A DNA stretch of 58,527 nucleotides, taken from NCBI GenBank assembly GCA_000724175.1, contig JPGV01000004.1:1-58527 (forward strand). Direction: 5' to 3'. Under the pieces are notes generated by a model that saw nothing but the letters and a program-made list of their open reading frames with translations, did not search any database and was not told where the DNA came from. Below, in pieces: positions 26,807-32,910 of this stretch. Positions within the stretch are counted from its first letter, which is position 1; every line of letters begins with the position of its first letter. The translations under genes and the position numbers were made by a program. Origin of the DNA: [Candidatus Thermochlorobacteriaceae] bacterium GBChlB. GTDB lineage: Bacteria > Bacteroidota > Chlorobiia > Chlorobiales > Thermochlorobacteraceae.

Positions 26807-27829
26807 TTACGGCACTTTGCGAAAGCGCGTGTTGGCGAGCAAGAGTTCAAGCGCGAGACATAAAAACGCAGGAACGAGAAATTGCGCGAACTCTTCTTTG
26901 TATTCCGTATAGATTTCGGTCTCGACTTTGGTTTTCTCGAGCAAGTCAATTTCACGATAGGTTCGGCGAAGCGTCTCCAAGTCGGTCGCTCGAAAGTATT
27001 TGCCGCCGGTCATCTGAGCAATGCGCGTGAGCGTTTCATCGTCGACATCGACCTTGACGCGCATATAGCGTTTGCCGAACAGTGGGTCTTCAAAAGGATA
27101 GTTTGCATAGCCGCGTGTGCCAGCGCCGACGGTATAGACTTTGATGCCCAACGCTGCCGCCAGTTCCGCCGCCGTTACAGGTTCGATTTCGCCCGCGTTG
27201 TTTTGTCCATCGGTCAAGAGAATAATCACCTTGCTGCGTGCTGTTGAGCTGCGCAGTCGGTTGACTGCCGTGGCAAGTGCCATGCCGATGGCTGTGCCGT
27301 CTTCCTGCATTCGGCCTGCTCTAAGCAACGCAATCATGCTGCGAAGCAATTGGTAATCGAGCGTGAGCGGACACTGCGTGTAACTTTGCCCAGCGAACAC
27401 TACCAAGCCGATGCGGTCGCTGACACGGTTTTTTACAAAGTCCATCGCCACTTCTTTCGCTGCTTCGATGCGGTTCTTTGGGTCGAAGTCTTCGGCAAGC
27501 ATAGAGCCAGAAAGGTCGATGCACATCACAATGTCAATCCCCTCGGCGTAAATGCTTTGCTTTTGATTTTCCAGACGCGGACGCGCCAGCGCAAGAATCA
27601 CAAATGAGAGCGCCATCAGCCGCAGCACAAAGACTATGTGACGACATGCTTTGACGTTGCTCTGCCGTGTTTGCGCCACCTGCCGGACGTCGGAAAATAC
27701 CAGCGCGGCGGTTTTGCCGACGCGCTCTCGATGCCAATACCAAAATGCCAGCACGGGAAACGAGAGAAACAGCAAAAACGCTTCGGGATTTTGAAACGAA
27801 AAATTCGGTCGTGTAAAAAGGTCAATCAT
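26807..27829 (-). CDS. batA: BatA-like von Willebrand factor A membrane protein
   Basis: The protein has 340 residues: N-terminal hydrophobic segments (about 15-32 and 62-84), a VWA domain, and a C-terminal helix (LVPAFLCLALELLLAN). The MIDAS metal site DLSGS lies at 105-109, with the Thr in GTAIGMALATA and the Asp in ILLTDGQNNAGEI completing it. Bat proteins work with MoxR ATPases and are linked to aerotolerance and envelope stress in Bacteroides and Leptospira. The start overlaps the preceding stop (TGATG), showing coupling with the BatD-like gene. Confidence 0.88.
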   Translation of the reverse strand: MIDLFTRPNFSFQNPEAFLLFLSFPVLAFWYWHRERVGKTAALVFSDVRQVAQTRQSNVKACRHIVFVLRLMALSFVILALARPRLENQKQSIYAEGIDIVMCIDLSGSMLAEDFDPKNRIEAAKEVAMDFVKNRVSDRIGLVVFAGQSYTQCPLTLDYQLLRSMIALLRAGRMQEDGTAIGMALATAVNRLRSSTARSKVIILLTDGQNNAGEIEPVTAAELAAALGIKVYTVGAGTRGYANYPFEDPLFGKRYMRVKVDVDDETLTRIAQMTGGKYFRATDLETLRRTYREIDLLEKTKVETEIYTEYKEEFAQFLVPAFLCLALELLLANTRFRKVP

Positions 27830-28800
27830 CAGCCTTTCACAGATGTTAACGGTTCAGTTGAGATAGGCTTTGCAATCTCGACAACTCGATACGCCAGTTG
27901 CAAACTTTCTTTGGCTTCCAACGCGCTCGGATAGAACTTTGCAAATTTCACTAAGTCGGCTTTCTCCAAGAGCTGTCTGGCAAGCATGGCTTCCTCGCGC
28001 GGACGACGGCGCAAGAGCGTTTCGTAGATTTCCGACGTTAATTGCTCCATTGCCGGAAAGCCGTAGTGCTGCTCTAAAAATTCGCGCACAGCGTCGGAGA
28101 GGTCGCTGTAGTATTTTTTGAAATCGGCTTGCGACTCAAGCGGCGCAGACTCCAACGCTTGCAGTTTTTCGATAGCCGTCTCGTAAGGCGATTTCGTGAC
28201 GACGATGTTCGGCGAGGCAATTTTCTTGCCGCGTTTCTTCAAAGAGGCATAGATAAAATACACCGCAACGCATAGTAAAATCAAGACTCCCGCGCCCGCA
28301 AGCCAAATCCATGTTGGAAACGGAAGCGTTTGAACAGGCTTAATATCGGCAATGTCCTTACGCGACGTATCCAAAGCAGATACCACGTAAATCTGCCTCA
28401 CCGATGGCACAATGAGCGTATCTTGGCGGCGCGTTTGTTCATCTGAATACGCAATGGAAAGCGCCGGCAAGCGTTGCATGCCTGTGTCAAACACCGTCAG
28501 GGTGTAACGCAGCTTCTCTGTAACCAGATTATCGGCTGCGTCTCTCTGCTCCAAGGGTAACTTTTCGATGTAGCGAATCTCAAACGGCATAAACGACGCC
28601 GTATCATTGAGCTGCGGATAATTCAGAACGAGCGTTGGTTTTTTTAGAACCGTTAGGGTGCAAAACACGTCATCGCCAATGGTGCAGGTGTCGGGTTTTA
28701 GCTCGACGGAGACGACCGGCTGCTGCGCGAGCGACATTGATGAGCAAAGCAGCGTAAAAAAAAGTGTTAGGAAAGTGCGGTAAAAACGGGCATTTAGCAT
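27829..28800 (-). CDS. BatD/DUF4381-like single-pass membrane protein of the Bat operon
   Basis: ATG 28800 gives 323 residues with the signal peptide MLNARFYRTFLTLFFTLLCSSMSLAQ; the longer upstream frame overlaps the DUF58 gene and is unlikely. The periplasmic part (about 27-185) is a beta-rich oxygen-tolerance-type domain (VSVELKPDTCTIGDDVFCTLTV). One membrane helix follows at about 190-212 (WIWLAGAGVLILLCVAVYFI), then a helical cytoplasmic tail with DLSDAVREFLEQHYGFPAMEQLTSE, a motif common in proteins next to MoxR/BatA. It is the usual membrane partner between DUF58 and BatA. Confidence 0.8.
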   Translation of the reverse strand: MLNARFYRTFLTLFFTLLCSSMSLAQQPVVSVELKPDTCTIGDDVFCTLTVLKKPTLVLNYPQLNDTASFMPFEIRYIEKLPLEQRDAADNLVTEKLRYTLTVFDTGMQRLPALSIAYSDEQTRRQDTLIVPSVRQIYVVSALDTSRKDIADIKPVQTLPFPTWIWLAGAGVLILLCVAVYFIYASLKKRGKKIASPNIVVTKSPYETAIEKLQALESAPLESQADFKKYYSDLSDAVREFLEQHYGFPAMEQLTSEIYETLLRRRPREEAMLARQLLEKADLVKFAKFYPSALEAKESLQLAYRVVEIAKPISTEPLTSVKG

Positions 28801-28816: not shown

Positions 28817-29701
28817 TTATTGGCGCAGTTCGCGCTGTTGAAAAAATGCAGCGAGTGGCTTGATATACGAGCGACCGGTCGAGACGCTGACGACATCGAC
28901 TTGCGATTTTTGCAATTGGCTTTTTCGGTTCGCTTGCAATTGCGACATTCGCGCTTCGTAATTTTTGCGAAACGCCTCGTCGAACGTATCTGCAATGAAA
29001 TGCTCGCCTGTCTCGGCATCTTGCAGTTCCAACAAGCCAACGGACGGCAATTCAAATTCGCGCGGGTCGGTAATTTGAATAATGACGAAGTCGTGTTTTT
29101 TATTGATAAGTTTGACTTTCTCGATAAACCCTCCGTCCATTAAGTCGCTGACGAGAAAGACAATAGCACGCCGCTTTAACACCCGTGTGGCAAAGTCCAG
29201 CGCGATGCCGATGTTGGTGGTTCTGCCCTTGGGTTTGAAGAAAAAAATCTCACGCAGAAGCCGCAGCACATGTGTTCTGCCTTTGCGCGGCGCGATGAAT
29301 TTTTCAATGACATCGGTAAAAATAACCAGTCCGACTTTGTCGTTGTTTTTTGTTGCGCTGAACGCGAGTGTCGCGCAAATCTCCGCCGCAAGGTCGCGCT
29401 TGAATTGTCCCTCCGAGCCGAAGCCGCCCGACCCCGAGGCGTCGTAAAGAATCATCAGGGTTTGTTCGCGCTCTTCTTCAAAGACTTTGATGAAGACGTC
29501 GTCGCGCCGCGCGGAGACGTTCCAATCAATCGCTCGGACGTCGTCGCCGAATTGATACTCGCGCACTTCGGCGAACTCCATTCCTTTGCCTTTGAACGCC
29601 GAATGATATTCGCCGCCGAAGATGTTGTTCACCAAGCCGCGCGTGCGAATTTCCAACTGCCGCACTTTTTTGAACACGTCTTTCAATTGCGTTTCCGCCA
29701 T
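28817..29701 (-). CDS. DUF58 domain protein (MoxR-associated VWA-like)
   Basis: ATG 29701 gives 294 residues (MAETQLKDVFKKVRQ); the longer frame would read through the previous gene. The DUF58 signature is clear: RGLVNNIFGGEYHSAFKGKGMEF-type start, REYQFGDDVRAIDWNVSARRDD, then a VWA-like fold with LMILYDASGS as the metal-site strand. GRTTNIGIALDF and IVFLVSDLMDGG are the other MIDAS loops. DUF58 proteins are the constant partner of MoxR AAA+ ATPases and are thought to be the adaptor for metal insertion or folding of VWA targets. Confidence 0.92.
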   Translation of the reverse strand: MAETQLKDVFKKVRQLEIRTRGLVNNIFGGEYHSAFKGKGMEFAEVREYQFGDDVRAIDWNVSARRDDVFIKVFEEEREQTLMILYDASGSGGFGSEGQFKRDLAAEICATLAFSATKNNDKVGLVIFTDVIEKFIAPRKGRTHVLRLLREIFFFKPKGRTTNIGIALDFATRVLKRRAIVFLVSDLMDGGFIEKVKLINKKHDFVIIQITDPREFELPSVGLLELQDAETGEHFIADTFDEAFRKNYEARMSQLQANRKSQLQKSQVDVVSVSTGRSYIKPLAAFFQQRELRQ

Positions 29702-29720: not shown

Positions 29721-30326
29721 TCAGTCTTTCTTCTTTTTCTTTTTATCCTTTTTGTCTTTTTTATCCTTCTTGTCGTGCTTCTCCATAATAATGCTATCTG
29801 CCGAAATGTATCGATGTTCGGTGGGTTCATCGTCGGGCGTGTAGCCAAGAATTTTCTTCACCATTTTTTGGCGGAGTTCGCACGCCAAACGGAACGCCTC
29901 TTTTTCGCCGTATTTCTGAATGGAAAAAGAGGTGGATTTTACTTTGTTTGGCTCGGGATTCCAACTGACGGCAAAGTATTCGCGCGACACGCCACTTTTA
30001 TTGACGGCTTTGCCACGATAGACGCCAACGACGCCTGTATTGCTCGTCCTGTTGGTAGACAGTCTGGCTTGACGCTTTCGTCTGCCCTCCGACGGGTCGG
30101 GCGCGCCAACTTCCTTCGCCAGTTTTCTCTGATACTTCTGCGCCGCCTCGAGCGACTCTTTTTCGCCACCATAGACGCCATCGCTGAAGAGTTTCGAGTA
30201 TGTGGCGCGCTGATGATACAACCGCATCAGCCAGCCATGCGTGGTGGCGTTATCGACACGGCTGATGCCCGGATGCTTTCCGCGCTTTGCAGTGGAGGAT
30301 GATTTTTTGATAGATGTATTTGCCAC
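29721..30326 (-). CDS. Double AP2-like domain protein with Lys/Asp tail
   Basis: The protein has 201 residues. Residues 18-70 (GISRVDNATTHGWLMRLYH ... GGEKESLEAAQKYQRKL) and 97-155 (TGVVGVYRG ... YFAVSW ... STSFSIQKYGEKEAFRLACELR) each fit the AP2/ERF fold: three beta strands with a conserved Gly-Val/Ile-Arg/Tyr start and an Ala-rich helix. The C-terminus (183-201) is a KDKK repeat ending in poly-Lys. No HNH nuclease or integrase domain is attached, unlike most bacterial AP2 proteins. I recall similar stand-alone proteins annotated as ERF-like in Chlorobium. It lies between MoxR and DUF58, 19 bases upstream of DUF58 and on the same strand. It is probably a DNA-binding protein; its target is unknown. 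Confidence 0.7.
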   Translation of the reverse strand: MANTSIKKSSSTAKRGKHPGISRVDNATTHGWLMRLYHQRATYSKLFSDGVYGGEKESLEAAQKYQRKLAKEVGAPDPSEGRRKRQARLSTNRTSNTGVVGVYRGKAVNKSGVSREYFAVSWNPEPNKVKSTSFSIQKYGEKEAFRLACELRQKMVKKILGYTPDDEPTEHRYISADSIIMEKHDKKDKKDKKDKKKKKKD

Positions 30327-30532
30327 TGCTGTATTGTATTAAGTTGATGATAAAACTCACGCTGCGCTCAACGACGAACCAATCTTTAAACAACGATTTA
30401 CGCTATACATCGCTGCCAGCCGTGCGAAGAATCGGTCTCAACGCTGCTCCGAAAGGAAAAAGAGTTTGTTAAGAACGGCCGCAATGTTGGTTACCTCTAC
30501 CTGTATTTTCAAGGCATTGCGGGCGGCGCCTG

Positions 30533-31531
30533 CTACGGAACATTCACCGCGTTTAAGACTTTTCGAACAATATCTTCGGGTTTGATGTCTTCAGCTTCAG
30601 CTTCGTAAGTCGGGATAATGCGATGTCGCAGCACGTCGTAAGCAATGGTCTTCACATCTTCGGGCGTGGTGTAGCCGCGCTGATTTAAAAACGCATTTGC
30701 TTTCGCCGCAAGGTTCAGGTAAATGGTTGCGCGTGGCGATGCCCCGTAAGCGACAAGATTTTTCAGTTCGGGCAAATTGACTTTTTCAGGCTCGCGCGTC
30801 GCAAAGACAATATCGACAATGTATTGCTCGACTTTCGGGTCGATGTAGACTTCGTTCACGACTTTTCGCGCGCGCAGAATTTCCTCTGGGGTAATGCACG
30901 GCTCGACAGGTTCGCGCCGCTCGGTTCGCGCCATGCGCCGCATAATTTCAAGCTCGTCTTCGCGTGTCGGGTAGCCAACTTTGAGCTTCATCATAAAGCG
31001 GTCGACCTGCGCTTCGGGCAAGGGATACGTGCCTTCCTGCTCGACGGGATTCTGTGTCGCCAATACCAAGAAGGGGTCGTCCAATTTATACGTCTGTTCG
31101 CCAATCGTAACTTGTTTTTCCTGCATCGCTTCCAGCAGTGCCGATTGCACTTTGGCGGGGGAGCGGTTGATTTCATCGGCGAGAATAATGTTAGCGAAAA
31201 TCGGGCCTTTCTTTGTGTAGAACTGCATATCCTTCTGGTTGTAAATCATCGTGCCGAGCAAATCGGCGGGCAGAAGGTCGGGTGTAAATTGAATGCGTTG
31301 AAATTTTAAACTAATGGCTTTGGCAAGCGAGCTAACTGTCAATGTTTTGGCAAGTCCCGGCACGCCTTCCAACAGCACATGCCCGTTGGTCAGCAAGCCG
31401 ATGAGCAATCGATTAACGACGTAGCTTTGTCCGACGACGGCTTTGGAGATTTCATCGCGCAGGCGATCTAAAAACTGCGACTCTTGGCGAATCTTGATGT
31501 TAAGCTCTTCAATCGAGACGGTAGATGTCAT
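30533..31531 (-). CDS. MoxR family AAA+ ATPase
   Basis: The protein has 332 residues. Walker A is LLEGVPGLAKT, Walker B is IILADEINRSPAKVQSALLEAM with the MoxR-specific ADEINR, and sensor 1 is FLVLATQNPVEQEGTYPLPEAQ with the arginine-finger region VDRFMMKLKVGYP. The C-terminal lid domain is complete. MoxR ATPases act as chaperones for VWA-domain proteins; here the DUF58 and BatA genes follow. A 206-base spacer without a clear gene separates it from the AP2-like gene, so a second promoter is possible there. Confidence 0.95.
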   Translation of the reverse strand: MTSTVSIEELNIKIRQESQFLDRLRDEISKAVVGQSYVVNRLLIGLLTNGHVLLEGVPGLAKTLTVSSLAKAISLKFQRIQFTPDLLPADLLGTMIYNQKDMQFYTKKGPIFANIILADEINRSPAKVQSALLEAMQEKQVTIGEQTYKLDDPFLVLATQNPVEQEGTYPLPEAQVDRFMMKLKVGYPTREDELEIMRRMARTERREPVEPCITPEEILRARKVVNEVYIDPKVEQYIVDIVFATREPEKVNLPELKNLVAYGASPRATIYLNLAAKANAFLNQRGYTTPEDVKTIAYDVLRHRIIPTYEAEAEDIKPEDIVRKVLNAVNVP

Positions 31532-31582: not shown

Positions 31583-31852
31583 TTATTGTTGTGGCTCGTC
31601 CGCCGAGTAATACATGGTGCTGAACGCATACACACAGATGCCAATGCCGACGAGCAGACACAAGAGCGACAGCATTGGGTCAACATACAGAAAGCTATGT
31701 ATCATGCCGATGCGCGGCGTAAAGAGCAAGAGCAAATTCGCGCCGAGTAAAAACAAAAACATGCGCGATGTTCGAACCAGCGTGGGCGGTTTTCTTGGCT
31801 TGTTTTTTTCGTTGGTGTCTTTACGTTTGGATTGTTCAAGGTCGTTTGCCAT
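31583..31852 (-). CDS. Small two-helix membrane protein upstream of MoxR
   Basis: The protein has 89 residues. A charged N-terminus (about 30 residues rich in Lys, Asn and Glu) is followed by two hydrophobic helices, MFLFLLGANLLLLFTP (about 31-46) and PMLSLLCLLVGIGICVYAFS (about 59-78). I do not recognise a family. It is the first gene of the Bat operon by position (51 bases before MoxR) and divergent from tsaD, with only 32 bases between their starts. It is probably real because of its composition and spacing, but no function can be given. Confidence 0.6.
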   Translation of the reverse strand: MANDLEQSKRKDTNEKNKPRKPPTLVRTSRMFLFLLGANLLLLFTPRIGMIHSFLYVDPMLSLLCLLVGIGICVYAFSTMYYSADEPQQ

Positions 31853-31884: not shown

Positions 31885-32910
31885 ATGAATATCTTGGCGC
31901 TTGAAACGAGTTGCGATGAGACCTCTGCCGCTGTGTTAAAACACGGAAAAGTCGCCTCCAACATCATCAGTTCTCAATTGGCACATCAAGCGTTTGGCGG
32001 CGTTGTGCCTGAAATTGCTTCGCGTGAGCACGAGCGTTTGGTTGTCTCCGTCGCTGCTGCTGCGCTTAGTGAAGCCAATATACGGAAGTCCGAACTCGAT
32101 TTCATAGCCGCAACATCGGGACCAGGACTCATCGGCGCAGTGTTGGTTGGACTTAACTTCGCTCAATCGCTCGCCTTCGCCTTAAAGAAACCGTTTGTTC
32201 CGGTCAATCACATCGAGGCGCATATCTTCTCGACATTTGTTGATGACGGTACCCACGAGCCGGCACGCATACCAGCATTTCCGTTTGTCTCGCTCACCGT
32301 CTCGGGCGGACACACGATGCTCGCGCTCGTGCAAGACGATTTGACCTACCGAGTCGTCGGACGAACCATTGACGACGCAGCAGGCGAAGCCTTCGACAAA
32401 ACCGGCAAGATGTTGGGACTGGGTTATCCCGCCGGCCCGTTGATGGACAAACTCGCCAAGCAAGGCAACGCCAAGTTTCATCGATTCCCGCAGGCATTGC
32501 TTTCGGAAGACAATTTTAATTTCAGTTTTTCGGGACTCAAAACCTCTGTTCAAACGTTTTTGCGCGATAAACCCGAACCGTTTGTTCAAGCGCATTTGGC
32601 GGATATTTGCGCCTCAATTCAAGACGCGATAACATCGGTCTTAGTTACGAAAACGCTCGCGGCGGCTAAATGCTTCAAGGTGAACACGGTGTCCGTTGCG
32701 GGCGGCGTGAGCGCGAACTCCGAACTGCGGCGGAAATTTCAGGTAGCATGTGCAGCAAAAAACCTCGCGCTGCACATTCCCAGACCGATTTTCTCGACCG
32801 ACAACGCCGCCATGATTGCAACGCTCGCGCATCTGAAACTCCAACGCGGGCTGGCGTCGCCTAATGATTACAATGTCGGCGCGTTTGCCGTCTTCACGCC
32901 GCCGTCCTAA
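31885..32910 (+). CDS. tsaD: tRNA N6-adenosine threonylcarbamoyltransferase TsaD
   Basis: The protein has 341 residues. It begins [16 protein letters not shown], the family start. The iron ligands are H109 and H113 in NHIEAH, and the ATPase loops VSGGHTM and [11 protein letters not shown] are both present. TsaD transfers the threonylcarbamoyl group from its AMP adduct to A37 of tRNAs that read ANN codons, with TsaB and TsaE (not in this window). It is a normal, complete housekeeping gene. Confidence 0.97.

Follow-up and report, generated by a model that had tools for sequence, protein, structure and literature searches.

A tandem AP2 protein encoded beside moxR in some Chlorobiales may be a host nucleic-acid-binding factor of general role

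The window, by which we mean the whole 58,527-nucleotide stretch of DNA that was analyzed, contains a moxR-DUF58-bat operon in which a gene for a tandem AP2 protein, here termed AP2x, is located between moxR and the DUF58 gene (Table 1). According to its ORF translation the frame is intact, with zero internal stops, and its GTG start is common to AP2x and its ortholog in genome G006, gene starts in the relatives being mechanical first starts. A whole-genome scan recovered AP2x as a single copy and as the sole AP2 match in its genome. As described in an earlier reading of the sequence alone (hereafter the sequence-only reading), the gene lies 19 bases before DUF58 and on the same strand as moxR and batA, and its position inside the operon is real and recurs in other Chlorobiales. 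The small membrane protein gene that opens the operon is conserved in most related loci, and the divergent neighbor at the operon edge is presumably tsaD-like, a name given by sequence recognition. Core genes and gene order are the same as in the moxR-DUF58-bat operon of Bacteroidota, from which the locus differs by the additional AP2 gene between moxR and DUF58.

The spacer between moxR and AP2x (30327-30532) measures 206 bp here versus 18-83 bp at the five other moxR-linked loci; it occurs once in the genome and is not a repeat. A promoter and terminator scan of the window locus returned nothing beyond chance level, the window held no Rfam match, and no shared motif was evident by eye in the few sequences upstream of the six moxR loci. 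In G009, a terminator with a 12-bp stem follows the moxR-AP2x pair.

Table 1. Positions of the features discussed; entries without a locus prefix refer to the window.
Feature	Position	Strand	Basis or remark
BatA, VWA protein	26807..27829	(-)	Pfam BatA and VWA
BatD-like membrane protein	27829..28800	(-)	weak DUF4381 match on 27829-28725; syntenic homologs; gene start inferred from sequence
DUF58 protein	28817..29701	(-)	Pfam DUF58, E 3e-77
AP2x, tandem AP2 protein gene	29721..30326	(-)	201 aa, GTG start
Lys/Asp-rich tail of AP2x, residues 183-201	29724..29780	(-)	net +8; charge computation
Short motif RYISADSIIME, residues 172-182	29781..29813	(-)	alignment A1
AP2 domain 2, residues 93-160	29847..30050	(-)	PF00847; profile match to PfSIP2 6sy0, E 6e-6
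AP2 domain 1, residues 18-78	30093..30275	(-)	PF00847 matches of relatives, hhalign, fold model, PDB fold search
MoxR AAA+ ATPase, upstream partner	30533..31531	(-)	Pfam AAA_3, E 6.9e-67
Small membrane protein, first gene of operon	31583..31852	(-)	tblastn and BLAST clusters
tsaD-like gene, divergent neighbor, operon edge	31885..32910	(+)	syntenic in most related loci
ORFs at moxR-DUF58 junction (G008)	L083:3825-4520
Decayed version of these ORFs at moxR-DUF58 junction (G007)	L082:6405-6798
DnaJ-like genes	L015:8876-9853, L070:6520-7530, L072:6101-7315
Acidic Salinibacter-like members	L069:7823-8443, L070:7975-8550, L071:7749-8336		charge computation
AP2-cytidine deaminase fusion (G009)	L026:9237-9920	(-)
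AP2-cytidine deaminase fusion (G012)	L027:9479-10135	(-)

Two AP2 domains, followed by a Lys/Asp tail and lacking a nuclease or integrase part, had been read from the sequence, and this description holds. The suggested HMM search against Pfam AP2 (PF00847) returned a match for AP2x at residues 117-156 (E 7.2e-7), within domain 2, but with 29.9 bits for the protein alone versus a cut-off of 33.3. In the whole-genome scan, the AP2x frame including neighboring residues reached 33.5 bits, above that cut-off, which several close relatives exceed as well. All but one of the 13 sequences in the first alignment, which includes AP2x, matched the Pfam family (best E 2.7e-11). Domain 1 of AP2x searched alone against Pfam gave no match; 14 of 25 domain-1 sequences did match Pfam AP2 (best E 8.1e-6), hhalign aligns domain 1 with domain 2 (P 1.3e-7), and the domain-1 model consists of a three-stranded sheet and a helix (pLDDT 94.6). 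By its relatives, its homology to domain 2 and its modeled fold, domain 1 is an AP2 domain. DSSP on the models assigned a three-stranded sheet packed against a helix to both domains, so that structure modeling, likewise suggested before, yielded the AP2 fold. Searches of AP2x with Pfam, PHROGs, NCBIfam and PADLOC detected neither a nuclease nor an integrase domain; the last three returned nothing useful.

Across alignments A1-A4 the proteins have conserved RxD/THGW/FSD and SxSIxKYG motifs and two AP2 domains, and a catalytic domain is absent. The short motif before the tail is recognizable in most Chlorobiales orthologs, moxR-linked or not, with L021 and L028 as exceptions, and Lys-rich tails are present in most Chlorobiales orthologs and missing from most other members. 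AP2x has a pI of 10.0, with a net charge of +9 in domain 2 in addition to that of the tail. Most other members are strongly basic too; those of the Salinibacter-like type are acidic (pI 5.1-5.7), a poor fit to a simple nucleoid-type role.

Plants and apicomplexan parasites use AP2 proteins as major transcription factors; what is known of the bacterial relatives comes mostly from homing nucleases. The full-model fold search placed the tandem AP2-DNA complex of PfSIP2 from Plasmodium first (E 7.3e-5), and PfSIP2 was also the top match in profile comparison, with an E of 1.7e-4 for the whole family, next to the lower value for domain 2. The PDB queried with the single AP2x sequence produced no match, and the whole two-domain model reaches only low TM-scores (0.21), an effect of its uncertain linker and domain orientation. 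PfSIP2/ApiAP2 proteins (PDB 6sy0, 3igm) resemble AP2x in carrying AP2 domains in tandem, both built as a three-stranded sheet with a helix, and in an SxxKYGxxxA-like signature in domain 2. AP2x differs from PfSIP2 in being bacterial, only 201 aa long and equipped with a basic tail, with an identity below 20% in the fold alignment. ApiAP2 proteins are nuclear transcription factors of Apicomplexa and relatives, whereas AP2x is bacterial and alike in fold and motif only.

For domain 1 alone, the AP2 proteins of the Toxoplasma mitoribosome (mtAP2; PDB 9g6k, 9hqv, 9i05) were the best fold matches (TM 0.69-0.74), and PfSIP2 scored 0.61-0.62; E-values were high throughout (0.06-0.8) because the domain is tiny, and the weight rests on probability and TM. 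The arm-type DNA-binding domain of P4-like integrases (3rmp) also resembles domain 1 in its small fold (TM 0.61), but the integrase catalytic part is absent in AP2x. AP2-HNH homing endonucleases likewise have the AP2 DNA-binding domain in common with AP2x, which lacks their nuclease domain and mobile context. Some viral endonucleases also matched the AP2x fold.

The sequence-only reading considered a stand-alone AP2 pair unusual in bacteria. Such proteins proved to be frequent in Bacteroidota, where the family profile matched 42 of 394 genomes (E <= 0.001), and nearly all matches whose neighborhoods were opened are stand-alone two-domain proteins. Stand-alone tandem relatives beyond Bacteroidota were found on an Anaerolineae contig and on Methylobacter and Desulfocapsa plasmids, other phyla being sampled thinly through single contigs and plasmids. 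The Desulfocapsa protein (WP_015405771) has a similar size, two domains and motifs as in AP2x; proteins of this type have no moxR neighbor, unlike AP2x. Public records label the stand-alone bacterial relatives 'AP2 domain-containing protein'. Stand-alone bacterial tandem AP2 proteins are thus a widespread kind, uncharacterized in the open-access literature searched. The dN/dS ratios between close family pairs (0.05-0.15) are low and therefore indicate purifying selection on the family. No phage relatives were detected by tblastn with the two queries used, two viral-contig scans yielded none either, and no AP2-endonuclease was seen among the ten Chlorobiales genomes scanned. Breadth, low dN/dS and the absence of a phage or viral match together argue for an established host family rather than a fresh mobile remnant.

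One AP2 domain, closely domain-1-like, was also observed as an N-terminal fusion to a cytidine deaminase in G009 and G012, where the fusion genes adjoin a thymidine-kinase-like gene. In the f1 genomes, including that of the window (G000:C25:80905-81315), the deaminase match covers the deaminase part only. The fused AP2 domain could bring the deaminase to nucleic acid.

In order of genes, the relatives of AP2x fall into different arrangements. A first survey found matches in 11 of 101 genomes. The order moxR-AP2x-DUF58-BatD-BatA occurs in the window genome (G000), G004, G006 and G012; in G001 and G009, AP2x remains by moxR although DUF58 is located elsewhere and the Bat genes are no longer nearby. 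The moxR link hence covers six genomes from two Chlorobiales families (f1, f2), with about 39-52% protein identity of the linked orthologs to AP2x. In four g3 genomes (G002, G005, G007, G008), in G003 and in f4 (G011, G014), moxR and DUF58 have no AP2 gene between them, and in G010 (f3) moxR is followed by DUF58, as visible up to the end of a short contig. As the operon occurs without an AP2 gene in g3, g4 and f4 genomes, AP2x is not a core moxR-bat component. The g3/g4 genomes mostly do have an AP2 gene, located away from the operon (G002, G005, G008, G003). The comparison of gene order proposed in the sequence-only reading thus places the gene inside the operon in some related genomes and outside it in others. 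In G008, two unrelated ORFs fill the moxR-DUF58 junction, with a decayed version in G007, so the site tolerates gene insertions. The second ORF in G008 resembles, by eye, an aspartic-protease-type protein.

The data allow the moxR-linked proteins to be one clade (AU p 0.415, a result limited by long branches), and those of g3/g4 form another group. In the neighborhoods opened, whose genes were named by eye and from BLAST clusters, a moxR of this type was absent within six genes outside Chlorobiales, and no partner gene recurred across lineages except moxR in Chlorobiales. The moxR linkage is old in part of the Chlorobiales and tighter than that to DUF58, and the operon does not require AP2x. 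DnaJ-like genes were seen upstream of the AP2x relative and on the same strand in the Anaerolineae contig (L015) and in Salinibacter-like genomes (L070, L072), with a small-heat-shock-like gene further upstream in L015. In these few independent lineages, the proximity may reflect a possible association with chaperone genes, or chance.

We posit that AP2x is a host-encoded, basic tandem-AP2 protein that binds nucleic acid in a general rather than a Bat-specific role, a reading to which we assign a probability of about one half (0.52). The idea of a host gene raised in the sequence-only reading is retained in so far as a host nucleic-acid-binding protein is probable, not in its variant of a mobile gene that was domesticated recently. 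On the model of PfSIP2, the two AP2 sheets would read two neighboring half-sites on double-stranded DNA, to which the Lys-rich tail may add non-specific affinity. Because of spacing and strand, AP2x is probably on the same transcript as moxR, and its level would then follow that of MoxR; given the 206 bp spacer, separate transcription in the window is possible. Targets are probably genome-wide and extend beyond the Bat operon, because most family members have no moxR beside them and some of the operons lack an AP2 gene. In our judgment, the odds of DNA versus RNA binding are about three to one.

RNA binding is possible because the closest structural matches include AP2 proteins of the Toxoplasma mitoribosome that bind rRNA. 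These proteins, which rank second in the profile search as well as top for domain 1, hold rRNA fragments together rather than serving as transcription factors (PMC11652630). An RNA-binding or ribosome-associated AP2x, as a bacterial counterpart of them, nevertheless appears rather unlikely, as the DNA-binding PfSIP2 is the higher-scoring match for the whole model and for domain 2 alike, and ribosomal genes are not linked to AP2x as a rule. The sequence-only reading had suggested a DNA-binding regulator of the operon; that AP2x serves the moxR-bat operon of Chlorobiales as a dedicated regulator of this type, its own gene included, is unlikely in our view. Its position between moxR and DUF58 in four genomes and next to moxR in two more, across two families and even where DUF58 has moved, would suit such a regulator. 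The same two genomes in which the AP2 gene keeps moxR with DUF58 gone speak against a Bat regulator, however, as do the operons without the gene (g3, g4, f4 and, as far as the short contig shows, f3), the g3/g4 genomes with the gene mostly elsewhere, and the unrelated or decayed ORFs at the junction. The 30327-30532 spacer, proposed as a site for DNA binding, is not conserved in its length, and in Riemerella, also of the Bacteroidota, control of the Bat operon lies with PhoP and MoxR feedback (PMC11834572).

AP2x might instead owe its position to accident, being simply read through at a permissive junction with no functional link to MoxR. This view concerns position only and is compatible with the general nucleic-acid-binding role preferred here; we consider it a tentative possibility, less probable than not. 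The filling of the same junction by unrelated ORFs in G007 and G008 and the different neighbors of the AP2 gene in other lineages are consistent with it, whereas moxR adjacency has been kept over the deep f1/f2 split, also where relocation has taken DUF58 and the Bat genes away. A homing endonuclease or integrase that was recently stripped of its catalytic part is a very improbable source of AP2x: AP2 domains do occur in HNH homing endonucleases and the fold is matched by some viral endonucleases, but the same two-domain layout is intact across distant lineages, dN/dS is low, and neither phage or viral-contig relatives nor an AP2-nuclease were encountered in the searches described above. These findings also tell against the recent domestication of a mobile gene; a very old origin of the homing or integrase type is possible.

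For the MoxR/Bat system, AP2x represents a lineage-specific companion gene and not a general regulator. Since its moxR/Bat position is confined to some Chlorobiales, it is probably not a dedicated operon switch. It is a quite doubtful but wider proposition that the bacterial tandem-AP2 family consists of sequence-specific regulators or rRNA-binding factors similar to the AP2 proteins of Apicomplexa, one of which became a fixed partner of MoxR in Chlorobiales; if true, this would couple gene expression to envelope stress. A bacterial two-domain AP2 family that is host-encoded, under selection and marked by apicomplexan-like signatures offers a simple system for studying the function of AP2 pairs, and lets one ask whether the DNA- or the RNA-binding role is the older one.
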